Shown: one piece after another, positions 1 through 17,777 of the stretch
How the letters are laid out: the number at the start of each line of letters is the position of its first letter
Position numbering within the stretch: position 1 is the stretch's first letter
Assembly: GCA_019119205.1 (NCBI GenBank)
Contig: DWXK01000103.1
Location: 1-34,764 of the forward strand
Source: Candidatus Mediterraneibacter intestinavium
Lineage (GTDB): Bacteria; Bacillota; Clostridia; Lachnospirales; Lachnospiraceae
Length of the DNA: 34,764 bases
Reading direction: 5' to 3'
Made by a program: the position numbers and the translations under genes
The notes under the pieces: generated by a model
The model's database searches: none
What the model was told of the DNA's origin: nothing
Seen by the model: the letters and a program-made list of their open reading frames with translations, nothing else

Positions 1-117
1 TCTGCGTGGTAATCTATTTACGTATATTTAAATAAAGGATGTTATGCCACAGGGATAATAAATGCCTGCGCAATGGCATTATGGTTCCGGAACAAGGTTA
101 TACAAAGGGAGAGTATC

Positions 118-3100: not shown

Positions 3101-3165
3101 AGCATCTGCGCAGGGTGTTCCAGGACAGCGGCGTGGATGTATGGGATTGCGAGCTGATGATATGA
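118..3165 (+). CDS. fkp: Bifunctional fucokinase / fucose-1-phosphate guanylyltransferase
   Basis: Probable cytoplasmic GDP-L-fucose salvage enzyme: it phosphorylates L-fucose to fucose-1-phosphate and then makes GDP-fucose for glycosylation of surface polymers. The 1015-residue product has an N-terminal nucleotidyltransferase region with GSGGATF near residue 81, a hexapeptide-like left-handed helix stretch around 380-420 (GAYVENAYVIG), and a C-terminal GHMP kinase from about 670. The kinase part shows VNWGGGWTDTPPH, the ATP loop PKGSGLGTSS near 786 and ISGAGGGGF near 972. Length and order match Bacteroides Fkp (about 950 residues). The ATG at 118 is chosen because GGGAGAG lies just upstream; an in-frame ATG at 73 has no such site. 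The gene stands alone and ends at a strong terminator. The related heptose-kinase GHMP branch is a less likely alternative. Confidence 0.85.
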   Translation: MRFKKMKNLFLRQSYLDSWEDYERSLRKRNFIKWDYIILTASNEAQADAYREQISERLEKGLLPESTHYAVLPDPDGKRVGSGGATFQVMKYIGEQLPGEEHPFKGRRILVIHSGGDSKRVPQYSAVGKLFSPVPRELPDGRGSTLFDEFIIGMSGVPSRIQEGMLVLSGDVLLLFNPLQIDAQFNGAAAISIKEPVSTGKNHGVFLNDGNDYVKCFLHKQTEERLQEMGAVNVEGNVDLDTGAVIFGNRLLEALYGLITTDHRPDEAKFRRFCNEEARISFYGDFLYPLASDSTLDDFYKEAAEGSLNDALHDCRTEIWNAIHEFSMKLICLSPAEFIHFGTTRELRQLVTQDVQDYEFLDWKMQVNSAVTGEGFAAHNAYVGRRAKVEAGAYVENAYVIGNSEVGAGAVLSHVRVCDRSVPEDIVLHGAELRDGRHVVRIYGVQDNPKGRYPGETAFLENTLEEMMDRNGVKPEDLWDDDETYLWFARLYPVCSTHEEALDAADILYRMACGTASEAEIKAWRESERMSLYSSFNETDISAAHAWEGELENRILTRRFIWALEDGQYYRDALEIFGKRGISEDIFHLLLKDAEEADFSLRIRIYYALSRYMKHEGKFFEDQHYDALETSCFGTIQEAVYNSAKKNLPDSSGYKICRDRVDVELPVRVNWGGGWTDTPPHCNEKGGVVLNAAMKLRGICPVQITVKRLDELHVEFESKDIGVYTVIDNADEIQDCHNPYDSFALHKAALIACGIIPIQEKADLKEILQKLGGGIYLSTQVYGVPKGSGLGTSSILSGACVKGIFEFLGLDRTEDEIYDVVLGMEQIMSTGGGWQDQVGGLTDGIKFITTRPGIDQHLKVEKIEMPEDGKQELKDRFALIYTGQRRLARNLLRDVVGGYIGSRPESLEALKEMKGVAVLMRLALEQGDIDEFASLLKRHWELSCQLDSGTTNTCIDQILLVCEELIDGKFISGAGGGGFIQVILKKGVTREQLHEHLRRVFQDSGVDVWDCELMI

Positions 3166-5130: not shown

Positions 5131-5226
5131 ATGGTATTGGCTGCATTTATCGCGGGACTTTTTATAGGAGGAACTGTGGGAGTTGTGTCTATGTGCCTGC
5201 TGCAGATCAACAGAGAGGAAGAATGA
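5131..5226 (+). CDS. DUF3789 small membrane protein (31 aa)
   Basis: A tiny gene coding for 31 residues: a hydrophobic segment with MVLAAFIAGLFIGGTVGVV, then a short tail ending INREEE. This glycine-rich single-span pattern with IAGLFIGGTVGV and a following Met-Cys is the signature of the DUF3789 family, as I recall it: very short proteins of Firmicutes chromosomes and mobile elements with no known function. The ATG at 5131 has GGGGAG six bases upstream; an ATG at 5125 is in frame but too close to it. It lies in the gap between the AAA-ATPase gene and the rpiR promoter. It is probably an inner-membrane micropeptide; no partner can be named. Confidence 0.7.
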   Translation: MVLAAFIAGLFIGGTVGVVSMCLLQINREEE

Positions 5227-5231
5227 ACGAT

Positions 5232-5287
5232 TTTACAAAGATTTAACATAATCTGTGAACCCGCCCACTTCTCTACTCTGCTATAAT
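5232..5287 (+). promoter_or_regulatory. PHO-box-like repeats and promoter of the rpiR gene
   Basis: TTTACA (5232), TTAACA (5243) and a weaker TGTGAA (5254) start exactly 11 bp apart, the spacing known for PhoP-type response regulators of Gram-positive bacteria. A perfect TATAAT at 5282-5287 follows 28 bp after the third repeat, and there is no good -35 box, as expected for an activator-dependent promoter. The first 18 bases match the pstS upstream region (11238-11255) at 17 of 18 positions. Confidence 0.65.
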
Positions 5288-5324
5288 AAAATCGGATCAG
5301 ATTTTTGTAATTTTATCAGAGATT

Positions 5325-5339
5325 TGTAGAAAATCTACA
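5325..5339. promoter_or_regulatory. Palindromic operator O1 (TGTAGA-N3-TCTACA)
   Basis: A perfect 15-bp palindrome, TGTAGAAAATCTACA, lies 38 bp downstream of the -10 element and 22 bp before the rpiR start, where a bound repressor could block elongation. A second copy (O2) overlaps the end of rpiR. Binding by the RpiR protein is inferred from position. Confidence 0.6.
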
Positions 5340-5361
5340 GAAGAGAGCGGGCGAAATATTA

Positions 5362-6270
5362 ATGAAGAACGGAATCACAAAACAGATCATGGCAGGCTAT
5401 GGAGACCTGCGGAAATCGGAGAAAAAAGCGGCGGATTATATCCTGGATCACATGGAGGACGCCGCGGGGGCGTCCATTGACCGGCTGGCGAAGGCGGCGG
5501 ACGTCAGCCAGCCCACGGTGCTCCGGATGCTCCGGGCGCTGGGTTTTACGGGGTATAAGGATTTTAAATACCGTCTGGTGGCGGAGCTTGCGTCCGCGGA
5601 ACCGGAGAAGGCGCGGTCGGCGGTGCCCATGTACGGGTACACGCTCCGGGAGGAGACGACCCTGGACGAGATCCCGGCTTATATGACGGAGACCGCGTCC
5701 AGGATGCTGGAGGAGACGCTGAAGAATATTTCCATAAAGACATACAGGAAAGCGGTGGATACGCTGCGGACGGCAAAGTCGATCAATATCTACAGTGTGG
5801 AGAACTCCGGGGTGGCGGCCCAGGACCTCCTGGCAAAGCTTCTCTATCTTGGGCTGCCCTGTCGGTATTTCAGCGACTACTATTATCAGCAGATCTCAGC
5901 GGGGAATCTCTCCGAGGGGGACGCGGCAGTGGGGATCTCCTATTCCGGGGAATCGAAGGACACGGTGGACGTGATGAAGACCGCGAAGAAGGCGGGTGCC
6001 ACCACCATCGCCATCACGAATTTCAAGGATTCGCCGATCAGCAGATACGCGGATATCCTGATCTGCACCAGCCAGGAGCAGTTTATCTACGGGAACGCCA
6101 TCTTTTCACGGATGCCCCAGCTTCTGATCGTGGATATGTTGTATATGGGGATCATTGCGTCGGACTATGACCGCTATGTGAAGATCCTGGACCGGGGAGA
6201 GAAGATGGTCCGGGAGCGGGCGTATCCCTCCGGGGCGGAGGAAGAGAAACCTCATAGAAAAATACCGTAG
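5362..6270 (+). CDS. MurR/RpiR-family transcriptional regulator of the phosphonate cluster
   Basis: A 302-residue DNA-binding regulator. Residues about 5-77 form the RpiR helix-turn-helix domain (SIDRLAKAADVSQPTVLRMLRALGF split over two helices), and residues about 120-260 form a SIS sugar-phosphate-type sensor domain with VGISYSGESKDTVDVM and ATTIAITNF. RpiR proteins usually sense phosphorylated metabolites. The neighbouring phn genes suggest an AEP- or phosphonoacetaldehyde-related ligand, but this is inference. The gene is preceded by PHO-box-like repeats and palindrome O1, and its stop codon lies inside palindrome O2, which suggests autoregulation plus control of the transporter downstream. 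The ribosome binding site before ATG 5362 is weak (GAGAGCGGGCG). Its very GC-rich codons resemble those of the transporter genes that follow. Confidence 0.9.
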   Translation: MKNGITKQIMAGYGDLRKSEKKAADYILDHMEDAAGASIDRLAKAADVSQPTVLRMLRALGFTGYKDFKYRLVAELASAEPEKARSAVPMYGYTLREETTLDEIPAYMTETASRMLEETLKNISIKTYRKAVDTLRTAKSINIYSVENSGVAAQDLLAKLLYLGLPCRYFSDYYYQQISAGNLSEGDAAVGISYSGESKDTVDVMKTAKKAGATTIAITNFKDSPISRYADILICTSQEQFIYGNAIFSRMPQLLIVDMLYMGIIASDYDRYVKILDRGEKMVRERAYPSGAEEEKPHRKIP

Positions 6271-6280
6271 AATTTCTACA
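6266..6280. promoter_or_regulatory. Palindromic operator O2 overlapping the rpiR stop codon
   Basis: CGTAGAATTTCTACA repeats the O1 pattern (TGTAGA-N3-TCTACA, one half-site mismatch, identical 3-bp spacer). It includes the rpiR stop codon (6268-6270) and lies about 100 bp upstream of the putative -10 box of the phn transporter operon. Confidence 0.55.
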
Positions 6281-6292
6281 TCAATACATACG

Positions 6293-6340
6293 TTAAGCCT
6301 TTGTAAAGTTTACATTCCCTTTACAAAGGCTTAATTTTTT
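6293..6340 (+). terminator. Hairpin with T-run after rpiR, overlapping PHO-box repeats
   Basis: A perfect 16-bp inverted repeat (6293-6308 with 6319-6334, arms TTAAGCCTTTGTAAAG / CTTTACAAAGGCTTAA, 10-nt loop) is followed by six T. It has the form of an intrinsic terminator for rpiR. The loop and right arm also contain two TTTACA units 11 bp apart, so the DNA may serve both as terminator and as activator site. Confidence 0.7.
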
Positions 6341-6374
6341 CTTGATAGCCGAAAAACGAAAAGCAGTGCATAAT
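6309..6374 (+). promoter_or_regulatory. PHO-box-like repeats and promoter of the phn transporter operon
   Basis: TTTACA (6309), TTTACA (6320), TTAATT (6331) and TTGATA (6342) begin exactly 11 bp apart. A -10-like CATAAT (6369-6374) follows 27 bp after the last unit, the same geometry as at rpiR and pstS. The leader between this promoter and the first gene can fold through GTTGTCGTTC (6393-6402) and GAACGGCAAC (6422-6431), just before the ribosome binding site. Confidence 0.5.
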
Positions 6375-6448
6375 CTGGATGTACGAAAGGGTTGTCGTTC
6401 CTGAGGGCGAAGGTCAGAGGTGAACGGCAACGCGAAAGGAGCTGCACT

Positions 6449-7219
6449 ATGCTGAGTTTAAAGAATGTAAAGAAGAGTTATGACGGTACGCCGGTGCTCA
6501 AGGGCATCAGTCTTGATATCGAAGACGGGGAGATCGTCTCGATCCTGGGACCTTCCGGGTGCGGGAAGACGACGCTGCTCAACCTGATCCTGGGGATCAT
6601 AGAGGCGGACGAAGGGCAGATCCTCTTTAATGGAAAGGACCTGACGAATGTTCCCATGGAGAAACGGGGCTTCAATATCGTATTTCAGGACTACGCCCTG
6701 TTCCCCAACCTGAACGTGTACCAGAACATTACATACGGACTGCGGAATAAACCGGGGATCTCCACTCAGGAGGAGGTGGACGACCTGATCCGGCTCCTGG
6801 GACTGGAGGAGCATCTGAACAAGCGGAGCGGTCAGCTCTCCGGCGGACAGAAACAGAGAGTCGCCCTGGCAAGGACCATGGTGATGAAGCCGAAGATCCT
6901 GCTCCTGGATGAGCCTTTGAGCGCTCTGGACGGGGTGATCAAGGAGTCTATCAAGGATCGGATCAGGACCATCGCCAAGGAATATAACCTGACCACGATC
7001 ATCGTGACACACGATCCGGAGGAGGCGCTGACTCTTTCTGACCGGGTCATGATCATCAACGACGGACAGATCGCACAGTTCGGTGACCCGGAGGAGATCA
7101 TCTCAAAACCGGAGAACGGATTTGTACAGCGGTTCATCCTGAACCAGCTTGAGATCAAGAAGAACAATATCTACAAGCTGTTCGCGGGACAGTTCCAGGC
7201 GCAGATGCAGGTTTCATAA
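6449..7219 (+). CDS. ABC transporter ATP-binding protein, putative 2-aminoethylphosphonate importer
   Basis: A 256-residue cytoplasmic ATPase that would energise phosphonate import. It shows all expected motifs: Walker A GPSGCGKTT (34-42), Q-loop Q80, signature LSGGQ (130-134), Walker B LLLDEP (151-156) and switch H188. It belongs to the Fe3+/polyamine/AEP importer group, judged by sequence style and by its position before phnW and phnX. ATG 6449 is chosen because AAAGGAG stands eight bases upstream; earlier in-frame codons lie in the untranslated leader. It is short compared with importers that carry a full C-terminal TOBE domain. The permease gene starts 13 bp after its stop, so the two are translated from one message. 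Specificity for AEP is inferred from gene context only. Confidence 0.85.
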   Translation: MLSLKNVKKSYDGTPVLKGISLDIEDGEIVSILGPSGCGKTTLLNLILGIIEADEGQILFNGKDLTNVPMEKRGFNIVFQDYALFPNLNVYQNITYGLRNKPGISTQEEVDDLIRLLGLEEHLNKRSGQLSGGQKQRVALARTMVMKPKILLLDEPLSALDGVIKESIKDRIRTIAKEYNLTTIIVTHDPEEALTLSDRVMIINDGQIAQFGDPEEIISKPENGFVQRFILNQLEIKKNNIYKLFAGQFQAQMQVS

Positions 7220-7232
7220 GAGGATGAAGACG

Positions 7233-9104
7233 ATGAGAAAAAACAGAGAGATCAAACTGATCTTTGTGATCGTGGCGGTGTTCTTCCTTTCTTTCCTGTG
7301 TGTTCCCATGATACGTATCCTCATGGAATCCTTTTCCGTGGACGGAGCGGACGGGTTCAACGGACTGCTCCTGGGATATGTGATCTACACGCTTCCGATC
7401 TCGTTCATGCTGATCAACAATACCATGGGATATATCGACAAGAAGTATACGGTCGTCTCACGGCTTATGGGAGACACGCCATTCAAGACCTTCCGGCTGA
7501 CCGTACTCCAGCCCCTTCTGGGGACTCTGGCGGCGTCTTTTATCCAGACATTTTTCCTCTGCTTTACGGACTTCGGTATTCCGGCGTCGGTGGGCGGGAG
7601 TTTTGAGGTGATCGCCAGCGTCCTTTACACGGAGATGCTGGGAAGCGTTCCCAACTTCGGGAACGGAGCAGTGGTGGCGCTGGTCATGCTGGTTCCCTCT
7701 GTGGTCAGCATCACAGTGCTGACTATCCTGGAGCGGTACAATGTGCGGTACAATAAGATCTCCCAGATCGAGCTGAAGCGGAGCCGGGGCAGGGATGTGG
7801 TATTCTCTCTGGCCAGCGCGCTGATCCTGATCGCTGTGTTCTCCGTATTCCTGGTCATGTTCCTGGTGCCTTTTGTGGATGAGTGGCCCTACCGGGTATC
7901 CTTCACCCTGGAGCATGTGCGGGCGGTGTTTGAGGACAGCAGTCTGTTCGGGGTATACCTGAATTCTGTGATGGTGGCTGTGATCACGGCGCTGGCGGGA
8001 ACTCTTGTTTCCTACGGCGCGGCGCTGGTGACGGCGCGGAGCACGGTGAGCGGAAGGCTGAAGAGTGTGATCGAGAGCATTGCCCTGATCACCAACACGA
8101 TCCCGGGAATGGTGATCGGTCTTGCCTACCTGTTCTGTTTCTCGGGAACACCGATCCAGAATACGTTCCTGATCCTGATCATCTGCAATATGGTGCATTT
8201 TTTCTCCACGCCATATCTGATGATGAAGAGTTCCCTCTCCAAGATGAACGGGTCCTGGGAGACCACGGCCATGCTCATGGGTGACAACTGGGTGAGGACC
8301 ATCATCCGGGTGGTGACGCCCAACGCGGTGTCCAGCCTGCTGGAGGTGTTCAGCTACTATTTCGTGAACGCCATGGTCACGGTCAGCGCGGTGATCTTCC
8401 TGGCGGGCGCGAAGACCATGCTGGTCACCACAAAGATCAAGGAACTGCAGTATTTTAATCAGTACAATGAGATCTTCGTACTCTCTCTCCTGATCCTGTT
8501 CACAAACATGGCAGGAAAGTTCCTGTTCCAGAATCTGGCGGACTACAGCCAGGCACGGCAGAACTCAGCAGCAGGAGCGTCTGCGGCGGCCGGGGCTGCG
8601 GGAAAACGATGGAAACTGACGCCCCGGAGGACTGCGGCTGTTCTTGCGGCGGCAGCGGTGGCGGCAGTCGGGATCGGCGCGGGGATCGCAGGGGAAAGCG
8701 GATCCGGCGAAGATCAGGTGGTGATCTACTCCAACGCGGACGACGAGGCGGTCCAGGCGATGAAGAATGCGCTGGATGAGAACGGATATGCAGGCGACCA
8801 CATCGAGGATTCCGGTTCTGCTCCACTAAAGAAAGTGCGCGCCGGTGAGGCGGCGGTCGGGTTCGGGCTTCGCCAGCAGGCTGTGGCGGACAAAGGGGCG
8901 GACTCCAATGAGAAGGCGATGGAGATGGCGCAGTGCATCATTGAGAATGGCAGGGAAGAACTGCAGACTTATTACCCCCTTGCCCTGTATGAGGGCGAGA
9001 CGACGGATGCGGCGAATATCTCCGCGAATCCAAAAGTGTTTGAAGAACCGCTGACCGTGGATCTTCTGGAGGAACACCAGGAACTCTCGGAAGAGTGCAA
9101 GTGA
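7233..9104 (+). CDS. Shortened ABC permease fused to a shortened AEP-type solute-binding domain
   Basis: A 623-residue fusion. Residues 1-440 resemble the two-halved FbpB-type permease of AEP/iron importers, with coupling loops at about 78-98 and 346-366. Residues 445-490 are an Ala-rich linker plus a further membrane segment (467-487). Residues 494-623 resemble an extracellular solute-binding protein, beginning QVVIYSNADDEAV, the usual mature start. Half 1 has only about 47 residues between its first helix and its coupling loop, against about 134 in half 2, so the second and third helices of half 1 are missing. The binding part is about 130 residues instead of about 330, with apparent joins near 526-530 and 553-556. 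The frame is intact throughout. ATG 7233 has AAGAGG nine bases upstream. Transport activity is doubtful. No other solute-binding gene lies nearby in the cluster. Confidence 0.75.
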   Translation: MRKNREIKLIFVIVAVFFLSFLCVPMIRILMESFSVDGADGFNGLLLGYVIYTLPISFMLINNTMGYIDKKYTVVSRLMGDTPFKTFRLTVLQPLLGTLAASFIQTFFLCFTDFGIPASVGGSFEVIASVLYTEMLGSVPNFGNGAVVALVMLVPSVVSITVLTILERYNVRYNKISQIELKRSRGRDVVFSLASALILIAVFSVFLVMFLVPFVDEWPYRVSFTLEHVRAVFEDSSLFGVYLNSVMVAVITALAGTLVSYGAALVTARSTVSGRLKSVIESIALITNTIPGMVIGLAYLFCFSGTPIQNTFLILIICNMVHFFSTPYLMMKSSLSKMNGSWETTAMLMGDNWVRTIIRVVTPNAVSSLLEVFSYYFVNAMVTVSAVIFLAGAKTMLVTTKIKELQYFNQYNEIFVLSLLILFTNMAGKFLFQNLADYSQARQNSAAGASAAAGAAGKRWKLTPRRTAAVLAAAAVAAVGIGAGIAGESGSGEDQVVIYSNADDEAVQAMKNALDENGYAGDHIEDSGSAPLKKVRAGEAAVGFGLRQQAVADKGADSNEKAMEMAQCIIENGREELQTYYPLALYEGETTDAANISANPKVFEEPLTVDLLEEHQELSEECK

Positions 9105-9124
9105 GAATCCATGCTGTGGGGAGC

Positions 9125-9202
9125 GCGCAGCACGGAATGATATGCAGGCGGCGCAGCACGGAATGATACGCAGGCGGCGCAGCACGGAACGAGTCGCAGG
9201 CA
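9125..9202. repeat. Three tandem 26-bp repeats between the transporter and phnW
   Basis: Three head-to-tail copies of a 26-bp unit beginning GCGCAGCACGGAA (9125, 9151 and 9177). Copies 1 and 2 differ at one base; copy 3 differs at about five. They start 20 bp after the transporter stop codon. They contain no obvious gene, and the lack of divergence between copies 1 and 2 suggests recent duplication. Confidence 0.9.
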
Positions 9203-9207
9203 TCGTA

Positions 9208-9229
9208 GTTGGAGGCTTCTGCCCCCAAC
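9208..9229 (+). other. Hairpin in the phnW leader
   Basis: GTTGGAGGC and GCCCCCAAC can pair (nine positions, one mismatch, 4-nt loop), followed a few bases later by TTTT. It could reduce read-through from the transporter gene into phnW or stabilise the phnW message; the T-run is too weak to call a terminator. Confidence 0.35.
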
Positions 9230-9282
9230 GTCGTTTTAGATATAGAAGTATAAGAAGGAAAAGAGAAAGGAAAAGAAAGAAG

Positions 9283-10389
9283 ATGAAAAGTTACAAATTA
9301 CTGACCCCGGGTCCTCTGACGACCACGGACACTGTGAAGAAAGAGATGATGTTCGACCACTGTACCTGGGATGACGACTACAAACAGATCACCCAGGAGA
9401 TCAGGAAAGGTCTCCTTGAGCTGGCACATGTCTCTGAAGAAGAGTACACCGCGGTGCTGATGCAGGGCAGCGGGACGTTCGGGGTGGAGTCTGTGCTCAC
9501 GAGCGTGATCGGTGAGAATGAAGAACTGCTGATCTGTGCCAACGGAGCGTACGGCGAGCGCATGGCGGATATCGCTTCCCATGCGGGCATCAAATACCAG
9601 ATCTACAATGAGCATTATAATAAAGTCCCCAATGCCCAGAAGATCGCGGAGATCCTGGACGGGGATCCGGCGATCACCCATGTGTCCATGGTGCACAGCG
9701 AGACTACATCCGGCATCCTCAATGACATCGAGGCGGTGGGAAAAGTGGTGAAAGAGAGGGGAAGAGTCTTCATCGTGGACGCCATGAGCAGCTTCGGCGG
9801 CGTGGACATCCCGGTGGCGGACTGGGGCATTGATCTCATCGTCAGCAGCGCCAACAAATGTATCCAGGGGGTTCCCGGATTCTCCTTTGTCATCGCGAGA
9901 AGAGACCTGCTGGAGGCGAGTGCGGGGAAGGCGAGAAGTCTGTCATTTGACCTGTACGACCAGTGGAAGACCATGGAAGTGGACGGAAAATGGAGATTTA
10001 CCTCACCGACACATGTGGTCCTTGCATTTGCCCAGGCGATGAAAGAACTGAAGGAAGAAGGCGGCATTGAAGCGCGGAGCAAACGTTACAGGGAGAACAA
10101 CCGTCTCCTGATCGAGCGGATGGCGGAGATGGGATTCCGTACTTATATCGACGGGACACATCAGGGGCCGATCATCACAACTTTCTTCTATCCGGAGGAG
10201 TGCCGCTTTACATTTGCCCAGATGTATGAGTACATCAAGGACAAAGGGTACGCGATCTATCCTGGCAAGGTGACCGAGGCTCCCACATTCCGGATCGGGA
10301 ATATCGGGGAGATATATAAGGAAGATATCGAAAAAGTGTGCGCGATCATAAAAGAATTTCTGGAGGGATACGATTATGAAGAAAATTAA
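9283..10389 (+). CDS. phnW: 2-aminoethylphosphonate--pyruvate transaminase
   Basis: First enzyme of AEP breakdown: it moves the amino group of 2-aminoethylphosphonate to pyruvate, giving phosphonoacetaldehyde and alanine. The 368-residue protein is full length for PhnW. It starts with YKLLTPGPLTTTDTVK and has the PLP-contacting Asp in FIVDAMSSFGG (D166) and the PLP lysine in SSANKCIQGVPGF (K192). ATG 9283 lies after a long purine-only tract (GGAAAAGAAAGAAG) that supplies the ribosome binding site; the open frame extends upstream into the 26-bp repeats but without homology. It overlaps phnX by 14 bp, so the two are translationally coupled. The intact enzymes contrast with the damaged transporter directly upstream. 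Confidence 0.95.
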   Translation: MKSYKLLTPGPLTTTDTVKKEMMFDHCTWDDDYKQITQEIRKGLLELAHVSEEEYTAVLMQGSGTFGVESVLTSVIGENEELLICANGAYGERMADIASHAGIKYQIYNEHYNKVPNAQKIAEILDGDPAITHVSMVHSETTSGILNDIEAVGKVVKERGRVFIVDAMSSFGGVDIPVADWGIDLIVSSANKCIQGVPGFSFVIARRDLLEASAGKARSLSFDLYDQWKTMEVDGKWRFTSPTHVVLAFAQAMKELKEEGGIEARSKRYRENNRLLIERMAEMGFRTYIDGTHQGPIITTFFYPEECRFTFAQMYEYIKDKGYAIYPGKVTEAPTFRIGNIGEIYKEDIEKVCAIIKEFLEGYDYEEN

Positions 10390-11149
10390 GGCAGTGATCT
10401 TTGACTGGGCGGGGACCACAGTTGATTTTGGATGTATGGCGCCGGTGCAGGCGTTTGTGGAAGTGTTTAAACAGTACGGCATCGAGCCTACGATGGAGGA
10501 AGTGCGAAAGCCCATGGGGATGCTCAAGATCGATCACATCCGCACCATGCTGAAGATGGAGCGGATCCATAATCTCTGGACTGAAAAGTACGGAAAGGAG
10601 CCGGGAGAAGAGGAAGCGCAGGCACTCTATCAGATCTTCGAGGAGAAGCTCCTCGGGATCCTGCCGGACTACTCCGATCCGAAGCCGGGCGTGGTGGAGG
10701 CAGTGAACCGCCTCAGAAGAAACGGATTCCGGATCGGTTCCACCACCGGATACAATGACAGGATGATGGAGATCGTGGTGCCGGCTGCGAGGGAGAAAGG
10801 CTATGAGCCGGATGTGTGGTTCAGCCCGGATTCTACCGGACAGAAAGGGCGTCCGTATCCGTATATGATCTTCCGGAACATGGAAGCGCTTGGCATCAAG
10901 AAAGTGAACCGGGTGCTGAAAGTGGGAGATACGGTCTCTGACATCAAAGAGGGACGAAATGCAGGGGTATGGTCTGCCGGTATCGTGGTAGGAAGTTCGG
11001 AGATGGGACTCAGCCTTGATGAGTACGAGGCGCTATCTCAGGAAGAGAAGGACCGCCTGTGCAAAGAGACAGCTGACAGATTTATAGAAGCAGGCGCGGA
11101 TAAAGTGTTCTACACCATACAGGATCTCGAAGGATTCCTCCTTGGTTAG
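10376..11149 (+). CDS. phnX: Phosphonoacetaldehyde hydrolase
   Basis: Second AEP enzyme: a HAD-fold hydrolase that cleaves the C-P bond of phosphonoacetaldehyde to acetaldehyde and phosphate through a Schiff base. The 257 residues include the nucleophile motif VIFDWAGTTVD (D10), the Schiff-base lysine in GMLKIDHIRTM (K51), STTGYNDRMMEIVVP in the core, and KVGDTVSDIKEG near the C-terminus with the Mg2+-binding Asp. All catalytic residues used by the Bacillus cereus enzyme are present. It starts within the end of phnW. It releases the phosphate that ties this cluster to the Pst system downstream, and a terminator follows. Confidence 0.96.
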   Translation: MKKIKAVIFDWAGTTVDFGCMAPVQAFVEVFKQYGIEPTMEEVRKPMGMLKIDHIRTMLKMERIHNLWTEKYGKEPGEEEAQALYQIFEEKLLGILPDYSDPKPGVVEAVNRLRRNGFRIGSTTGYNDRMMEIVVPAAREKGYEPDVWFSPDSTGQKGRPYPYMIFRNMEALGIKKVNRVLKVGDTVSDIKEGRNAGVWSAGIVVGSSEMGLSLDEYEALSQEEKDRLCKETADRFIEAGADKVFYTIQDLEGFLLG

Positions 11150-11194
11150 ACAGATATATCGGTAAAATCGATAAAAAGAAAACGGGAAAAATGT

Positions 11195-11233
11195 CCTCAT
11201 TTTATGCGAAATGGCGTAAAATGGGGATTTTTT
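11195..11233 (+). terminator. Terminator after phnX
   Basis: CCTCATTTTA (11195-11204) pairs with TAAAATGGGG (11217-11226, one wobble) and is followed by ATTTTTT. It separates the phn operon from the pst promoter that begins five bases later. Confidence 0.75.
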
Positions 11234-11237
11234 CGAC

Positions 11238-11292
11238 TTTACACAGATTTAACATTCTCCTGATTTTACATTTAACATTTCTCTTTTATGAT
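11238..11292 (+). promoter_or_regulatory. PHO-box-like repeats and promoter of the pst operon
   Basis: TTTACA (11238) and TTAACA (11249) are 11 bp apart, with further TTTACA (11265) and TTAACA (11272) units. The -10 element TATGAT is at 11287-11292, and no good -35 box is present. This matches PhoB/PhoP-activated pst promoters and repeats the rpiR upstream site almost base for base. Confidence 0.75.
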
Positions 11293-11353: not shown

Positions 11354-12277
11354 ATGAAAATGAAAAAGTTTATTGCAATTTTAGCAGCAGCAGGAATGGT
11401 AGCATCACTGGCTGTAGGATGTGGCAGCAGCTCAGATGATACATCAGCATCAGGAGATGCAGCAGCAACAGAAGAAGGAGGAGACGCAGCAGCTTCTGAA
11501 TGGGATGCATCAAGCACGATCACAGTCGTTTCCCGTGAGGAAGGATCCGGAACAAGAGGAGCTTTCACAGAGCTGTTCGGCGTTGTGGATGAGAACGACA
11601 ACGATATGACAACACTTGACGCTCAGGTAACAAACAATACATCCGTTATGATGACAACAGTATCAGAGAATGATTACGCGATCGGATACATCTCTCTCGG
11701 ATCTCTGGACGAGTCTCTTGTAAAGGCAGTTTCCATCGACGGAGCTGAGGCTACGGCAGAGAACATCGAGAACGGTTCCTACACAGTGTCCAGACCGTTC
11801 AATGTGGCAGTGAGAAATGACCTTGACAATGCAGTCGCTACAGACTTCATGGCATTTATCATGAGCACAGAGGGACAGCAGGTCGTTGCTGACGAAGGTT
11901 ACATCCCGGTATCTGAGGTAGAGGCTTACGCAGGGGATGCTCCGGAAGGAAGCTGTGTCGTAGGCGGATCTTCTTCCGTATCTCCGCTGATGGAGAAACT
12001 GGTAGAAGCATACGGAGAGGTAAACCCGAACGCATCTATCGAGCTTCAGACATCTGATTCCACAACAGGTATGACATCCACGATCGAGGGAAGCTATGAC
12101 ATCGGTATGGCATCCAGAGAACTGAAAGAGGAAGAGGCTGCTGAACTGACAGGTACAGTGATCGCAACAGACGGTATCGCAGTTATCGTAAACCAGAACA
12201 ACCCGACAGAGGATATGTCAGTAGACCAGGTAAAATCCATCTACCTTGGCGATGTGACAACATGGGATGCGATCTAA
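11354..12277 (+). CDS. pstS: Phosphate-binding lipoprotein PstS, circularly permuted
   Basis: Extracellular phosphate receptor of the PstSCAB importer, anchored by a lipid on C23 (lipobox LAVGC after a short signal peptide). It is followed by a low-complexity Ser/Ala/Asp/Glu-rich linker. The 307 residues carry the usual PstS motifs in swapped order. The VVSREEGSGTRGAF phosphate loop, normally in the second half, is at 58-71. The normally N-terminal GGSSSVSPLMEKL is at 204-216, DSTTGM at 235-240 and IGMASREL at 250-257, and the protein ends TTWDAI, the piece that usually runs into TVVSREEGSG. So the old C-terminal half comes first. The ribosome binding site is AAAAAGGAG. I recall the same arrangement in other Lachnospiraceae, but cannot verify it here. 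Confidence 0.93.
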   Translation: MKMKKFIAILAAAGMVASLAVGCGSSSDDTSASGDAAATEEGGDAAASEWDASSTITVVSREEGSGTRGAFTELFGVVDENDNDMTTLDAQVTNNTSVMMTTVSENDYAIGYISLGSLDESLVKAVSIDGAEATAENIENGSYTVSRPFNVAVRNDLDNAVATDFMAFIMSTEGQQVVADEGYIPVSEVEAYAGDAPEGSCVVGGSSSVSPLMEKLVEAYGEVNPNASIELQTSDSTTGMTSTIEGSYDIGMASRELKEEEAAELTGTVIATDGIAVIVNQNNPTEDMSVDQVKSIYLGDVTTWDAI

Positions 12278-12370
12278 AGCACCAGTTCAGCCATAGGGCT
12301 GGATGGAGACTGAGATACAAGACACAATGCAGAGAAATCTTGAAGTGAAAGACTTTCCGCTTTGAATTTA

Positions 12371-12405
12371 TGAGCCGGGCAGATACATGGCATCTTCCCG
12401 GCTCA
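12371..12405 (+). other. Intercistronic hairpin between pstS and pstC
   Basis: TGAGCCGGG / CCCGGCTCA, a perfect 9-bp stem with a 17-nt loop, ends three bases before the pstC ribosome binding site AGGAGG and has no T-run. In pst operons such stems commonly protect the abundant pstS message from 3' decay or limit flow into pstC. Confidence 0.6.
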
Positions 12406-12418
12406 TTAGGAGGAAAAA

Positions 12419-13312
12419 ATGAAATCAAAAGCATGGACTGAAAAATTCATGCAGGGAGTATTTTTCGTTGCCGCGTGTGCATCCGTGCTGGCGGTAGCTC
12501 TCATCTGCATCTTCCTGTTTGCAAATGGTATCCCTGCAATGAGCGAAATTGGATTTGTTGAATTTATCACGGGGACAGAGTGGCGTCCCAACAGCGAGAT
12601 GTTCGGTATCCTTCCGATGATCGTGGGAAGCCTCTATGTGACTGCCGGAGCGATCATCTTTGGAGTACCGATCGGTATCCTGACTTCGGTGTTTATGGCG
12701 ATGTACTGTCCGAAGCAGATCTATAAACCGCTGAAGGCGGCGACAGAACTGCTTGCCGGGATCCCGTCAGTTATCTACGGTTTCTTCGGTCTGGTGGTAG
12801 TTGTACCGCTGATCCGCAGCTTCGGTGAGACACTCAAAGCCGCGGGACTGGTACAGAATCCGGGAAACGGAAACAGTATCCTGACCGCTTCCCTTATCCT
12901 GGGAATGATGATCCTTCCGACCATCATCGGGACAACAGAGAGCGCGATGCGCGCAGTTCCCTCTCATTATTATGAAGGATCCCTGGCTCTGGGAGCGACA
13001 AAAGAGAGAAGCATCTTCCGGGTGATCATCCCCGCTGCAAAATCAGGTGTGATCGCCGGGATCGTACTCGGTATCGGCCGTGCCATCGGAGAGACCATGG
13101 CGGTCATCATGATCGTCGGAAACCAGGCGCGTCTCACATCCAGCATCCTGGATGGTATCCGTACTCTGACCGGAAATATCGTTATTGAGATGGGATATGC
13201 GACAGGACTTCACAGAGAGGCACTGATCGCAACGGGAGTTGTGCTCTTCGTATTCATCCTGATCATCAATTTCAGTGTAGCTTTATTAAAGAGGGGGGCA
13301 GACCATGAGTAA
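12419..13312 (+). CDS. pstC: Phosphate ABC transporter permease PstC
   Basis: One of the two membrane subunits of the high-affinity phosphate importer, 297 residues with about six membrane helices. Visible family features are the first helix at about 12-37, the conserved ELLAGIPSVIYGFFGL segment, and a coupling loop ALGATKERSIFRVIIPAAKSG before the last helices. AGGAGG lies six bases before the ATG. It overlaps pstA by 8 bp, which implies translational coupling. A 141-bp spacer with a hairpin separates it from pstS, which usually keeps PstC levels below those of the binding protein. Confidence 0.95.
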   Translation: MKSKAWTEKFMQGVFFVAACASVLAVALICIFLFANGIPAMSEIGFVEFITGTEWRPNSEMFGILPMIVGSLYVTAGAIIFGVPIGILTSVFMAMYCPKQIYKPLKAATELLAGIPSVIYGFFGLVVVVPLIRSFGETLKAAGLVQNPGNGNSILTASLILGMMILPTIIGTTESAMRAVPSHYYEGSLALGATKERSIFRVIIPAAKSGVIAGIVLGIGRAIGETMAVIMIVGNQARLTSSILDGIRTLTGNIVIEMGYATGLHREALIATGVVLFVFILIINFSVALLKRGADHE

Positions 13313-14165
13313 TAAGACAACCATTGGTGACAAGTTCAGGACTTATCTGAAACATCCGGGCTCTTTTATCGTGATGCTGCTCGTGATGCTGTCAGCGATC
13401 ATCACGTTCGCCGTGCTGATCTTCCTGATCGCTTATATCCTGATCAACGGACTGCCGCACATCACACCGTCTCTCTTCTCTCTGGAGTACAGTTCAGAGA
13501 ATGCGTCGGTGGTGCCTGCGCTGGTCAATACGATCGTTATGACACTGCTGTCCCTGCTGATCGCAGTTCCGTTCGGAATTTTTTCTGCGATCTTCCTTGT
13601 GGAGTATGCGGCGAGAGGAAATAAATTCGTTGAGGTTATCCGGCTGACGACAGAGACGCTGTCCGGTATCCCCTCTATCGTATACGGCCTGTTTGGTATG
13701 CTGTTTTTTGTAAATGCACTGGGCTGGGGCTTCTCCCTTCTTGCCGGCGCATTTACCATGGCGATCATGATCCTTCCGCTGATCATGAGAACGACAGAGG
13801 AGGCGCTTAAAGCAGTTCCGGATTCCTATCGTGAAGGAAGCTTCGGGCTGGGGGCGGGAAAGCTCCGGACCGTGTTCCGCATCGTCCTTCCGTCCGCGAT
13901 CCCGGGCGTCCTTGCAGGTGTGATCCTGGCGATCGGACGTATTGTCGGCGAGACTGCGGCCCTGATGTACACATCGGGAACCGTGGCTCAGATCCCGGAC
14001 AGTATCATGGGATCGGGACGTACTCTGGCGCTGCACATGTACACTCTGTCCAGCGAGGGACTTTACATGGACCAGGCATACGCGACAGCGGTCATCCTGC
14101 TTATCCTTGTGGTAGGCATCAATACTCTGTCAAGCGTGATTGCAAGAAAACTCACAAAAGCATAG
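13305..14165 (+). CDS. pstA: Phosphate ABC transporter permease PstA
   Basis: Second membrane subunit of the phosphate importer (286 residues, six predicted helices). It shares with PstC the [15 protein letters not shown] motif and has the coupling loop [22 protein letters not shown]. It ends with [11 protein letters not shown]. Its ATG lies inside the end of pstC with GAGGGGGG upstream, and pstB begins 13 bp after its stop. Length and motif order are normal, with no damage. Confidence 0.95.
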
Positions 14166-14178
14166 AAAGGGAATGGAA

Positions 14179-14928
14179 ATGTCAAAGATAAGTATCAAGA
14201 ATCTCGATTTATATTACGGCGATTTCAAAGCCCTCAAAAATGTAAATCTTGAGATCGAATCCAATAAGATCACCGCTTTTATCGGACCTTCCGGATGCGG
14301 TAAGTCTACTCTGCTCAAGTCCATCAACCGTATGAACGACCTGGTGGAAGGATGCCGCATCGACGGCGAGATCCTTCTGGACGGCCAGAATATCTTCAAG
14401 GGCATGGACGTAAACATGTTAAGAAAACGTGTCGGAATGGTATTCCAGAAGCCGAATCCGTTCCCGATGAGCATCTATGACAACATTGCGTTCGGACCGA
14501 GAACGCACGGGATCCACTCAAAAGCAAAACTGGATGATATCGTGGAGAAGTCACTGCGCAGCGCGGCGATCTGGGAAGAGTGCAAAGATCGTCTCAAGAC
14601 CAGTGCGCTGGGGATGTCAGGCGGACAGCAGCAGAGGCTCTGCATCGCAAGAGCGCTTGCAGTAGAGCCGGAAGTGCTGCTGATGGATGAGCCTACATCT
14701 GCTCTTGACCCGATCTCGACTTCTAAGATAGAAGACCTTGCGATGGAACTGAAAAAAGACTATACTATTGTCATGGTAACACATAACATGCAGCAGGCGG
14801 TACGTGTGTCTGACAATACAGCCTTTTTCCTGCTGGGTGAAGTTGTAGAGTACAATGATACGGAAAAACTTTTCTCTATACCGTCAGATAAGAGAACAGA
14901 AGACTATATCACAGGGAGGTTCGGTTAA
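14179..14928 (+). CDS. pstB: Phosphate ABC transporter ATP-binding protein PstB
   Basis: ATPase subunit of the phosphate importer, 249 residues. It has Walker [10 protein letters not shown], the PstB-typical [21 protein letters not shown] stretch (Q-loop), the signature [15 protein letters not shown], Walker [14 protein letters not shown] and the switch histidine in [10 protein letters not shown]. Of two close ATGs, 14179 is preferred because AGGG stands seven bases upstream; 14173 would be too near the Shine-Dalgarno sequence. The phoU start codon follows its TAA directly. Confidence 0.96.
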
Positions 14929-15600
14929 ATGCGGAATAGGTTTGACGAGCAGCTCCATCTCCTGGATGAGCAGCTCACACAGATGGGAGAGTTGTGCGAG
15001 ACAGCGATCGCGAAAGTTACGAAAGCTCTGGAGAGCGGGAGCAAAGATCAGGCAAGGATCATCATCAGCGAGGATGAGGAGATCGACCAGCTTGAGAAGG
15101 ATATCGAGAGACTGTGCTTAAAACTTTTGCTCCAGCAGCAGCCGGTGGCAAAAGACCTGAGAAGGATCTCGGCGGCTCTGAAGATGATCACAGATATGGA
15201 GCGTATCGGAGATCAGACATCCGATATCGCGGAGATCATCCTTTCCTCAAAACACTGGGCTCCGGCGGCAGAGAACATCCATGTCATCGGGACCATGGCG
15301 TCTGAGGTGAGCAAGATGGTGCGCAACAGCGTGACGGCATACGTAAAGAGAGACCTGGAACTGGCGCGTGACGTTATGAGCGCGGACGATGCCATTGACC
15401 AGTATTTTGATGAGGTCAGAGATGAGATGATCGATTTCATCAGAGATGAGAAAGGTGAGAATGGAAAGAAGATCTTCGATCTTATCATGGTTACAAAATA
15501 CCTTGAGCGTATCGGCGACCATGCGACGAACATCGCTGAGTGGGTAGAATTTTCTATCACTGGTGTTCACAAAGACAGCGCGATCATACATGAAAGCTGA
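14929..15600 (+). CDS. phoU: Phosphate transport regulator PhoU
   Basis: PhoU links PstSCAB activity to the PhoR sensor and restrains phosphate uptake when phosphate is plentiful. The 223-residue protein has two three-helix bundles with the metal-binding repeats: MITDMERIGDQTSDIAE (about 84-100) and VTKYLERIGDHATNIAEW (about 188-205). Its ATG abuts the pstB stop codon, and the ribosome binding site AGGGAGG lies in the pstB coding region. It closes the pst operon and is followed by a strong terminator. Confidence 0.95.
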   Translation: MRNRFDEQLHLLDEQLTQMGELCETAIAKVTKALESGSKDQARIIISEDEEIDQLEKDIERLCLKLLLQQQPVAKDLRRISAALKMITDMERIGDQTSDIAEIILSSKHWAPAAENIHVIGTMASEVSKMVRNSVTAYVKRDLELARDVMSADDAIDQYFDEVRDEMIDFIRDEKGENGKKIFDLIMVTKYLERIGDHATNIAEWVEFSITGVHKDSAIIHES

Positions 15601-15786: not shown

Positions 15787-16461
15787 ATGATATTTTGTGT
15801 TGAAGATGACGATAATATCCGTGAACTTGTGATATATACGCTGGAAACAACGGGGCTTAAGGCGAGAGGGTTTGCGGACGGAGCCGCATTCATGGAGGCT
15901 CTCGCATTTGATACACCGGAACTGATCCTGCTCGATATCATGCTTCCCGGTGATGACGGGCTGGAACTGTTGAAAAAACTGAAGTCCTCCTCGAAGACCA
16001 AAGGGATCCCTGTCATCATGGTGACGGCAAAAGGCTCGGAATATGACAAGGTAGTGGGACTTGACTCCGGGGCAGACGACTATGTGACGAAACCTTTCGG
16101 CATGATGGAGCTGGTCTCCAGGATCAAGGCAGTGCTGCGGCGCACCGGAAAAGTGGAGGACCGTATCGATATGGACATCTCGGGAGTCCATGTCAATGTG
16201 AAAAAGCACGAAGTCACTGTAAATGGAAAAGAGATATCCTTGACATTAAAGGAATTCGAGCTTCTTGAAAAGCTGATGAGAAACCAGGGGATCGTCCTCA
16301 CCAGAGACCAGCTCCTTGCCGAGATCTGGGGCTATGATTTCGACGGGGAGACAAGGACGGTGGACGTGCATATCAGGACGCTGCGCCAGAAGCTTGGTGA
16401 GAAGGGCGAGATCATCCAGACAGTCCGCGGCGTGGGATATCGTGTAGGGGGAGACGTATGA
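15787..16461 (+). CDS. phoB: PhoB/PhoP-type response regulator (OmpR family)
   Basis: Transcription factor of the phosphate-starvation two-component system, 224 residues. The receiver domain has the acidic pocket E6-D7-D8, phosphoacceptor D50 (LILLDIMLPG), T80 and K102 (TKPF). The C-terminal winged helix (about 125-224) contains LTLKEFELLEKLM, DVHIRTLRQKLG and TVRGVGYRV. GAAGGAGA precedes the ATG. It overlaps the kinase gene by 4 bp (ATGA). Its place right behind phoU makes it the likely reader of the 11-bp-periodic boxes before rpiR, phn and pstS. Assignment to PhoB/PhoP rather than another OmpR regulator rests mainly on this context. Confidence 0.9.
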   Translation: MIFCVEDDDNIRELVIYTLETTGLKARGFADGAAFMEALAFDTPELILLDIMLPGDDGLELLKKLKSSSKTKGIPVIMVTAKGSEYDKVVGLDSGADDYVTKPFGMMELVSRIKAVLRRTGKVEDRIDMDISGVHVNVKKHEVTVNGKEISLTLKEFELLEKLMRNQGIVLTRDQLLAEIWGYDFDGETRTVDVHIRTLRQKLGEKGEIIQTVRGVGYRVGGDV

Positions 16462-17777
16462 AAAGTAAGATCCAGCGCATCCTGGTGCTGATCCTGTTTG
16501 TGACACTGCTTCTGTTTTATGCTATCCTTGCAGTGATCCTTTATAACCGCAATATGTCCATCCTGGAGGCGGAAGTGCGCCAGGAGGCGAAGTATATCCA
16601 GACCGCGATCAATATCTCCGGGACGGATTATCTGGAACAGATGGACGAAGTGGACTGGGACACCCGGCTGACTCAGATCGCTTCAGACGGAGAGGTGCTT
16701 TACGACTCCCGCAGAGACGAGACCACCATAGAAAACCACAGCAGCCGCCCGGAAGTTCAGGATGCGCTGGAAAATGGAACGGGCGAGGATGTCAGGATGT
16801 CGGATACGGTAGGCAGAGAGATGTATTATTATGCTGTCCTTCTGGATGACGGTTCTGTTCTCCGGGTTGCAAGATCTGTGGACGGTCTGATCAGGACGGC
16901 AGTAAATGTGTTTCCTGTCATGGGTGCGCTGGCGGTCCTGATGCTCTGTGTTGCGGTCCTGCTGGCGAGATGGCAGACAAAACGGCTGATCAAGCCGATC
17001 AATGAGCTGGACCTGGAAGAGCCTCTGGAAAACGACATCTATCCGGAACTGCATCCTCTGCTCGTGGCGATGGATCAACAGAACAAGGAAAAGGAAGCCG
17101 TTTCCAACATGAGAAAGGAGTTTTCCGCCAATGTGTCACATGAACTGAAGACTCCGCTCACATCCATCTCCGGCTATGCGGAGATCATGAAGAACGGGAT
17201 GGTGCGGCCGGCAGATATCCCTGTATTTTCAGAGCGGATCTACAAGGAGGCGCGCAGGCTGATCACTCTTGTGGAGGATATCATCAAGCTGTCCAAGCTG
17301 GACGAGGAGTCCGTGGAACTTGAGAAAGAACAGGTCAACCTCTATGAACTGACCAGGGAAGTGGTGAGCCGCCTTTCCCCGCAGGCCGCCCAGAAGAATA
17401 TCCGGATGGAAGTCACCGGCGAGCCGGTGGTCTATAACGGCATCCGGCAGATCCTGGACGAGATGATCTACAATATCTGCGAGAATGCGATCAAATATAA
17501 TAATGACTACGGACGTGTTTCCGTGTGGGTCGGCAATACGCTGGAGGGGGCAAAGATCAGTGTGTCGGATACCGGGATCGGCATCCCGGAGGAACATCAG
17601 GACAGGATCTTTGAGAGATTCTACCGGGTAGACAAGAGCCACTCCAAGGAGCGCGGCGGGACCGGACTGGGATTGTCCATCGTGAAGCACGGGGCGATCC
17701 TCCACGGCGCGAAAGTCATCGTGGACAGCGAGCCGGGGAAGGGGACGCGGATGGAGATCCACTTTCCGAAGAGATGA
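16458..17777 (+). CDS. phoR: PhoR-type sensor histidine kinase
   Basis: Membrane histidine kinase paired with the upstream regulator, 439 residues. Helix 1 is at about 8-29, an extracellular region at about 30-148, and helix 2 at about 149-171. The catalytic core follows: H228 in FSANVSHELKTPLTS, the N-box around IYNICENAIKYN, and the G-boxes VSDTGIGIPEEH and GGTGLGLSIVKHG. Between helix 2 and the H-box there are only about 50 residues, with no PAS domain. Many Firmicutes PhoR proteins carry roughly 110 residues more there, and the local sequence DQQNKEKEAVSNMRKEF could be a join. With or without that segment the kinase core is complete. A terminator follows the gene. Confidence 0.9.
   Translation: MKSKIQRILVLILFVTLLLFYAILAVILYNRNMSILEAEVRQEAKYIQTAINISGTDYLEQMDEVDWDTRLTQIASDGEVLYDSRRDETTIENHSSRPEVQDALENGTGEDVRMSDTVGREMYYYAVLLDDGSVLRVARSVDGLIRTAVNVFPVMGALAVLMLCVAVLLARWQTKRLIKPINELDLEEPLENDIYPELHPLLVAMDQQNKEKEAVSNMRKEFSANVSHELKTPLTSISGYAEIMKNGMVRPADIPVFSERIYKEARRLITLVEDIIKLSKLDEESVELEKEQVNLYELTREVVSRLSPQAAQKNIRMEVTGEPVVYNGIRQILDEMIYNICENAIKYNNDYGRVSVWVGNTLEGAKISVSDTGIGIPEEHQDRIFERFYRVDKSHSKERGGTGLGLSIVKHGAILHGAKVIVDSEPGKGTRMEIHFPKR

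Follow-up and report, generated by a model that had tools for sequence, protein, structure and literature searches.

In Bacillus subtilis and Escherichia coli, the phosphate response regulators, PhoP and PhoB, bind head-to-tail direct repeats of 11 bp (PMC4415409). Both Pho control of phosphonate use and second, substrate-dependent regulators of the LysR type are known: phnWX is under Pho control in enterobacteria, and Pseudomonas putida BIRD1 has AepR, a LysR-type regulator that depends on 2-aminoethylphosphonate (AEP) (PMC10574752). Here we analyze a locus of Candidatus Mediterraneibacter intestinavium (Lachnospiraceae). The window, the whole stretch of DNA analyzed, comprises 34,764 nucleotides (contig DWXK01000103.1 of assembly GCA_019119205.1) and carries, between 5.2 and 17.8 kb, rpiR, phnT, a permease/binding-protein fusion, phnW, phnX, pstSCAB-phoU, and a PhoB/PhoR-like pair. 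From sequence and conservation, we consider it likely that the AEP-use operon (transporter, phnW, and phnX) is a member of the Pho regulon and under the additional control of the neighboring RpiR. The initial annotation had read the locus as Pho-linked AEP use opened by phosphate starvation. Motif placement and conservation support that reading, yet it is incomplete. Since an RpiR operator has good sequence support at both rpiR and phn, we extend it from opening by phosphate starvation to control by two inputs.

RccR, an RpiR-family protein from Pseudomonas, binds a 15-bp site, TGTAGTnnnACTACA, as shown by surface plasmon resonance and footprinting (PMC5489143). The site of Streptococcus pneumoniae NanR, of the same family, lies well upstream of the promoter, and activation via a tetramer has been proposed (PMC12713135). 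An RpiR gene is tabulated among phosphonate-transporter genes of Bifidobacterium longum, where the available text describes no RpiR control (PMC8477406); an RpiR gene is also named with ethanolamine genes, in a paper whose available text describes no control of phosphonate genes (PMC10132767). The terms RpiR and GntR do not occur in the phosphonate review PMC10574752, and no RpiR-family phosphonate regulator of this kind turned up in the literature searched, most subscription journals lying outside it.

Nine TTTACA/TTAACA-like units at exact 11-bp steps had been proposed in the window, and eight of them are present at that spacing. They read TTTACAAAGATTTAACA before rpiR (5232/5243), TTTACACAGATTTAACA before pstS (11238/11249), and TTTACA, TTTACA, TTAATT, and TTGATA before phn (6309/6320/6331/6342). 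The ninth, TGTGAA at 5254, is unsupported as a third rpiR unit: the score falls when it is added, and by eye it is absent from the genus rows. As had been claimed, the rpiR and pstS sites are identical at 17 of 18 bases. When each region was shuffled 1000 times with dinucleotides preserved, the two-unit scores of rpiR, phnT, and pstS were never reached, nor was the four-unit score of phnT; the unit matrix was composed after the units had been read. The three promoters have a common geometry: measured from its first base, the core pair stands 50 bp from the -10 at rpiR, 49 at pstS, and 49 at phn (units 2-3). As proposed, rpiR and phn lack a good -35, but pstS has a fair -35-like TTTACA at 11265, 16 bp before TATGAT. 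Immediately 5′ of the rpiR PHO box is a small open reading frame (ORF) of 31 codons (5131-5226), and the end of this ORF is also present in locus L045.

We then looked at the motif across the own genome, an assembly of 2.6 Mb in 104 contigs that is 81.6% complete. The loose pattern TTWACAN5TTWACA has five matches there versus six for the reversed control, that is, no overall enrichment; three of the five fall in the window, which makes up 1.3% of the genome sequence. The fourth is exactly the pstS box and lies 529 bp before a PHO4-family (Pit) phosphate transporter gene with a DUF47 partner. We rejected the fifth, C78 TTTACAAAAATTTTACA, as a Pho site. It precedes nadA-nadB (gene names read from translations) and may be, at a guess, a NiaR-type site. 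Among 58 genomes of the genus, the own one included, the pattern TTTACRnAnATTTAACA gave 104 matches in 54, and the reversed control gave none. The next of the queried genes within 900 bp was pstS for 52 matches, rpiR for 33, phoH for 12, ppk1 for 4, and pit for 1, with none for 2; the rpiR-type box of L148, where rpiR is gone, is counted under pstS. The motif does not occur at random genomic positions, then, as 102 of the 104 matches precede one of these five genes. Since the matches number 104 against 0 in the control, nearly all of them before phosphate genes or rpiR, the box, judged by its placement, marks a Pho regulon of pst, pit, phoH-ppk1, and phn in the genus, AEP use included. The own phoH-HD-ppk1 operon has a copy with two mismatches; because that level gives 14 matches versus 10 for the control, this copy rests on its place.

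The sites are also conserved in relatives, being kept in all 30 rpiR, all 26 pstS, and all 22 phnT rows of the genus. These upstream rows comprise the window, the fetched genus loci, and L078, wherever the gene start was found; L077, L079-L084, and L088 were left out (same contigs, public names), and the rpiR/pstS box was matched on the first 16 of its 17 bases. The best -10 hexamer lies 49-50 bp from the box start in 30/30 rpiR rows, two of which differ at base 17, and at 49 bp in 26/26 pstS rows, two of which match TATAAT at just 4/6 positions. In 22/22 phnT rows, units 1-3 are present and the -10 follows the array start by 60-61 bp; unit 4 is off by one base in L067. The phn cluster is partly lost in L069-L075, L052, L056, L068, L147, and L148, with pst and the promoter of rpiR retained in several of them. 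In L148, a mere 215 bp separates the rpiR box from the pstS box; the cluster losses may be an assembly artifact.

A second site, TGTAGAnnnTCTACA, was missed by the initial annotation and resembles a known RpiR-family site. Its core, GTAGAWWWTCTAC, has exactly two copies in the 2.6-Mb genome, one in the rpiR leader and the other before the phn array, and no further exact operator copy was found in that genome. Operator 1 lies 93-94 bp from the PHO start in 30/30 genus rpiR rows, and operator 2 lies 43 bp from the phn array in 22/22 phnT rows, although the intervening bases vary; the match is at least 10/12 in each case. Sequence and conservation place a palindromic candidate operator both at rpiR's own promoter and at the neighboring phn. 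Across the genus, matches to GTAGAnnnTCTACA reduce to 59 distinct sites, spread over 34 of the 58 genomes; rpiR or phn accounts for 49 of these and a third target, described below, for two. Another palindrome pattern, GTAGAAWWTTCTAC, was discarded, since its spacing was wrong and it had no exact site; the 13-bp form did match.

A search for phnW (E up to 1e-90) found it in 33 of 348 Lachnospiraceae genomes, including the own, and we took 33 loci from the other 32. An rpiR relative precedes phnT in 16 of these loci; in 10, phnT is present and the stretch lacks rpiR, and in 7, nothing matches phnT at threshold. What links the genes is not the pst neighborhood: of 25 phnT upstream regions tested from other genera, 20 carry an array reached by at most 1/300 shuffles, while within the fetched stretches and identity thresholds, pst genes adjoin phn in 1 of the 33. 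Where rpiR is adjacent, 13 of 16 loci carry an operator (at least 10/12) at phnT; where it is not, 0 of 8 do (Fisher p = 2e-4). L183 and L191 were left out of this count because their contigs end close upstream (629 bp before phnT in L183); with L183 kept among the loci lacking rpiR, the comparison is 13/16 versus 0/9 (p = 1e-4). In the RpiR tree, the operator-less Bifidobacterium, Evtepia, and L181 rows form a separate clade (100/100), and L182, also without an operator, falls outside it. A composite operator-plus-array pattern, drawn from loci already examined, occurs at 7 places in 7 of 397 family genomes, with 0 for the reversed control. All seven places lie between rpiR and phnT; six had been seen before, the window among them, and the one in G353 is new. 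Two further observations concern rpiR surroundings in this set. In L211, from another genus, directly 5′ of rpiR-phnT is an HD gene resembling the one in the phoH operon, which makes a further Pho neighbor. L169-L172, L176, and L179 have a common TTGTATTTTTTnnnGTACAAT-like sequence before rpiR, where by eye there is no clear PHO box.

The distance from operator to array in 14 loci from 13 other genera (operator at least 9/12) is 43, 43, 42, 31, 29, 32, 31, 43, 43, 42, 31, 31, 33, and 21 bp. These values cluster near 11-bp steps, with R = 0.880 at period 11 for n = 14 (L172 dropped) and R = 0.885 for n = 15, in which one genus is counted twice. With the seven distinct distances only, the phase p is 0.0015, and the fit is much the same for any period from 10.5 to 12. 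Kinship is not taken into account in the phase test; in the tree, six of the seven loci at 29-33 bp are one clade, leaving perhaps about three independent length changes and a p of about 0.02. Since the distances sit near 11-bp steps in the genus and in 13 other genera, it is possible, and we put it forward tentatively, that at phn RpiR joins PhoB in a single complex, helically phased, which acts as an AND gate for phosphate starvation and AEP.

The phn array overlaps in part a perfect 16-bp inverted repeat with a T-run (arms 6293-6308 and 6319-6334), which had not been annotated. PHO unit 1 lies in the loop of the predicted hairpin (-21.3 kcal/mol, z -7.9); since the right arm contains PHO unit 2, one DNA stretch would serve both as terminator and as PHO site. 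Both 6293..6334 and 11186..11234 are predicted to form a stable hairpin followed by a T-run, as intrinsic terminators do, and there was no Rfam match anywhere in the window. An alignment of 26 rows, 21 of them distinct, covers 25 rows from the genus plus L161; 99.4% of its cells pair, and mean column identity is 94%. Thirteen of the 16 stem pairs are invariant, one shows CG, UA, and GC, and one alternates between U-A and U-G. Counted as pairs with changes on both sides, the variation does not exceed that of shuffles (450 of 500 reach it); counted as cells with such changes, or by covariation score, it is above all 500. A single varying pair is thin evidence of covariation, and the U-G forms speak for an RNA stem. 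The operator and the rpiR hairpin are separate in the window. Elsewhere they can merge: in 8 of the 14 operator loci of other genera (L167-L172, L178, and L179), the operator is itself the stem of a terminator-like hairpin 3′ of rpiR, by the rule that at least five of six operator arm positions pair in the predicted fold and that a T-run of at least 5 follows within 30 nt. Applied to the genus, this loose rule admits 2 of 22 rows (L054 and L055) and none of the other 20, which include the window.

We propose the following mechanism. In low phosphate, PhoR would phosphorylate PhoB, which would bind the head-to-tail repeats of rpiR, phn, and pst, some 50-60 bp upstream of each -10, and recruit RNA polymerase to these promoters, those of rpiR and phn being without a -35. 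RpiR would bind the TGTAGAnnnTCTACA sites. At the leader site, 38 nt past the -10, it would block its own transcription in the manner of a roadblock and limit its own synthesis; at the site before the phn array, it would set the effectiveness of PhoB. RpiR would be altered by a metabolite arising from AEP uptake, in the simplest case AEP itself or phosphonoacetaldehyde, and full expression of phn would require both low phosphate and AEP. The predicted hairpin and T-run 3′ of rpiR would separate the two transcription units. The upstream place of the phn operator fits RpiR as an activator, or as a partner to PhoB, more readily than simple blocking, and RpiR control of phn is probably substrate dependent.

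Part of this evidence could be read otherwise. The phn array might be nothing but the rpiR terminator, its TTTACA units being by-products of the hairpin arms. The perfect stem, the T-run, and the folding energy would fit, and so would the RNA-like variation of the stem, with one pair going through CG, UA, and GC and another tolerating U-G. However, in other genera the arms are different, and still 11-bp units lie 3′ of the hairpin in 12 of 14 operator loci (not in L175 and L189), with 60-62 bp to the -10; a terminator would also not be expected to keep a near-invariant sequence and a fixed promoter distance. We find this account hardly credible. Terminators are seldom near-invariant across species. 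The repeat at 6293-6334 might, in another reading, be a DNA site for yet another regulator and no terminator. Its near invariance across species and the confinement of covariation to one pair, with both-side changes at the level of shuffles, favor such a site; the U-G pair, found in 8 of 21 distinct rows, breaks DNA symmetry and keeps an RNA stem, and other genera carry terminator-like hairpins of other sequences in the same place, so that a DNA site seems quite improbable.

Two further readings concern the action of RpiR on phn and its signal. It might be that the arrays are PhoB sites and that the TGTAGA palindrome serves RpiR autoregulation or another pathway without a role at phn. Pho control of phosphonate use is common (PMC10574752), and L183 and L185, in which no rpiR was seen, keep an array-like stretch with a -10-like hexamer at 61-62 bp. 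This would leave unexplained the second operator at phn, held at a fixed distance in 22/22 genus loci, and the way in which operators follow the presence of rpiR across genera; we regard it as unlikely. RpiR could instead sense a sugar phosphate or some other signal, making carbon or cell wall status, not AEP, the second input. RpiR has a SIS domain, and proteins of its family bind 2-keto-3-deoxy-6-phosphogluconate or N-acetylmannosamine-6-phosphate (PMC5489143, PMC12713135). Yet the place of rpiR next to phnT is conserved in 16 of 33 family loci, rpiR is near phn genes also in a Bifidobacterium and an Evtepia locus, and the own genome has no further exact operator by our search, all of which makes a signal other than AEP somewhat doubtful.

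Several points weigh against control of phn by Pho and RpiR together as we propose it. In the genus, the reversed control of GTAGAnnnTCTACA has 162 matches versus 90 for the pattern itself, and with one mismatch in the own genome, the control gives 26 rows versus 16. Since the control outnumbers the pattern, although it takes no account of place, position and conservation must carry the case for the operator. A simple repressor would not usually have its operator some 100 bp upstream of the -10, and three of the 16 rpiR-bearing loci lack a good operator at phnT (L181, L182, and L174, the last at 9/12). The RpiR-family ligands in the available text of PMC5489143 and PMC12713135 are sugar phosphates. 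The top matches of PhoB and PhoR are all below the curated family cut-offs. Finally, because the transporter gene of the window is 268 amino acids (aa) shorter than that of the nearest relative, the phn operon may be nonfunctional in this strain.

The third target of the operator is found in 2 of 58 genus genomes and not in the own one. In G003 and G044, the operator-hairpin-array set lies 167 bp before the gene of a LamG and type I phosphodiesterase protein, which, from the look of its ends, is probably secreted and wall anchored. It has a second palindrome, GTAGAAAAACTAC, about 100 bp upstream. The closest solved sequence is a phosphonate monoester hydrolase, 4upk, a weak match (E 0.0039). 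Such an enzyme would fit a release of AEP from esters.

Gene assignments in the locus differ in their basis (Table 1). The N-terminal HTH_6 (70.9 bits) and C-terminal SIS (65.9 bits) domains of RpiR exceed their Pfam cut-offs, and both enzymes of the AEP phosphonatase pathway, PhnW and PhnX, are encoded in the window above curated cut-offs. The names pstC and pstA are given by position and conservation in relatives, and the placement of phoB/phoR 3′ of pst-phoU, which agrees with their names, is likewise kept in relatives. The permease and substrate-binding protein are one chain of 883-891 aa in the three relatives compared; parts of both halves are absent from the fusion in the window. Elsewhere in the window, the large protein encoded at 73-3165 combines a fucose pyrophosphorylase domain with a GHMP kinase domain; it is an enzyme of the L-fucose salvage type.

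Table 1. Features of the phosphonate and phosphate locus, with the phosphodiesterase genes of two other loci. Positions are in the window unless a locus is named.
Feature	Position	Strand	Remarks
PHO element of rpiR, two units at 11-bp spacing	5232..5248	+	First 16 bases kept in 30/30 genus rows
-10 TATAAT of rpiR	5282..5287	+	TGC before it (extended -10); no -35 match
Candidate RpiR operator 1, TGTAGAAAATCTACA	5325..5339	.	rpiR 5′ leader, 38 nt past -10
rpiR, RpiR-family regulator, 302 aa	5362..6270	+	HTH_6 and SIS domains; nearest solved chain 8k3b
Candidate RpiR operator 2, CGTAGAATTTCTACA	6266..6280	.	Over rpiR stop codon; one base off TGTAGAnnnTCTACA
Perfect 16-bp inverted repeat, 10-nt loop, probable rpiR terminator	6293..6334	+	T-run 6335-6340
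Four-unit 11-bp PHO array of phn operon	6309..6347	+	Starts 6309, 6320, 6331, 6342
-10 CATAAT of phn operon	6369..6374	+	60 bp from array start
phnT, AEP-type ABC transporter ATPase	6449..7219	+	Top model PhnT2, 299.6 bits, below cut-off (457.7)
phnU fused to substrate-binding-protein fragments, 623 aa	7233..9104	+	PhnU2, 254 bits, below cut-off
phnW, 2-aminoethylphosphonate-pyruvate transaminase	9283..10389	+	TIGR02326, 524 bits, above cut-off
phnX, phosphonoacetaldehyde hydrolase	10376..11149	+	TIGR01422, 361 bits, above cut-off
Hairpin and T-run, probable phnX terminator	11186..11234	+	-25.5 kcal/mol; ends just 5′ of pstS PHO element
PHO element of pst operon	11238..11254	+	Kept in 26/26 genus rows
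-10 TATGAT of pstS	11287..11292	+	49 bp from PHO start
pstS-pstC-pstA-pstB-phoU	11354..15600	+	pstB, phoU above NCBIfam cut-offs; pstS 187.8 bits (cut-off 206.6)
phoB and phoR two-component pair	15787..17777	+	Best matches PhoB, 235 bits (cut-off 296), and PnpS/PhoR, 254 and 230 bits; all below cut-offs
LamG-phosphodiesterase genes	L202:1461-4552, L204:2087-5001		

In the 8 of 14 other-genus loci whose operator doubles as a hairpin stem, RpiR binding, rpiR termination, and PhoB activation would share a stretch of about 80 bp. The overlap of operator, terminator, and PHO unit would be a compact case of one DNA stretch with three regulatory tasks. The analysis predicts a Pho regulon with an explicit box for this Lachnospiraceae genus (pst, pit, phoH-ppk1, and phn) and puts forward an RpiR-type control of AEP use, with its operator, as a candidate. 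It also suggests that some gut bacteria turn to AEP for phosphorus only while phosphate is scarce.

The locus has head-to-tail 11-bp repeats in common with the Pho regulons of B. subtilis and E. coli; here they stand beside pst genes and a PhoB/PhoR-like pair. Unlike in known PHO boxes, the unit is TTTACA/TTAACA, not CTGTCAT, and the core pair lies 49-50 bp before the -10; we take the units to be akin to the TT(A/T/C)A(C/T)A units of Bacillus. The locus shares with the enterobacterial and P. putida BIRD1 systems an AEP catabolism by phnW/phnX under likely phosphate control, and with P. putida a second regulator, for which the candidate here is of the RpiR family, unlike the LysR-type AepR. The operator has a TGTAG core and a 3-bp spacer in common with the RccR site TGTAGTAAAACTACA (PMC5489143); unlike for RccR/HexR, the half-site is TGTAGA, and the target is phosphonate use, not central carbon metabolism. 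NanR provides a precedent for an RpiR protein acting from upstream, as proposed at phn, but its ligand is N-acetylmannosamine-6-phosphate, its operator sequence is another, and the available text mentions no PHO array (PMC12713135). What appears to be new here, judging from the literature searched, is an RpiR-family candidate as the second control on a Pho-linked AEP operon.

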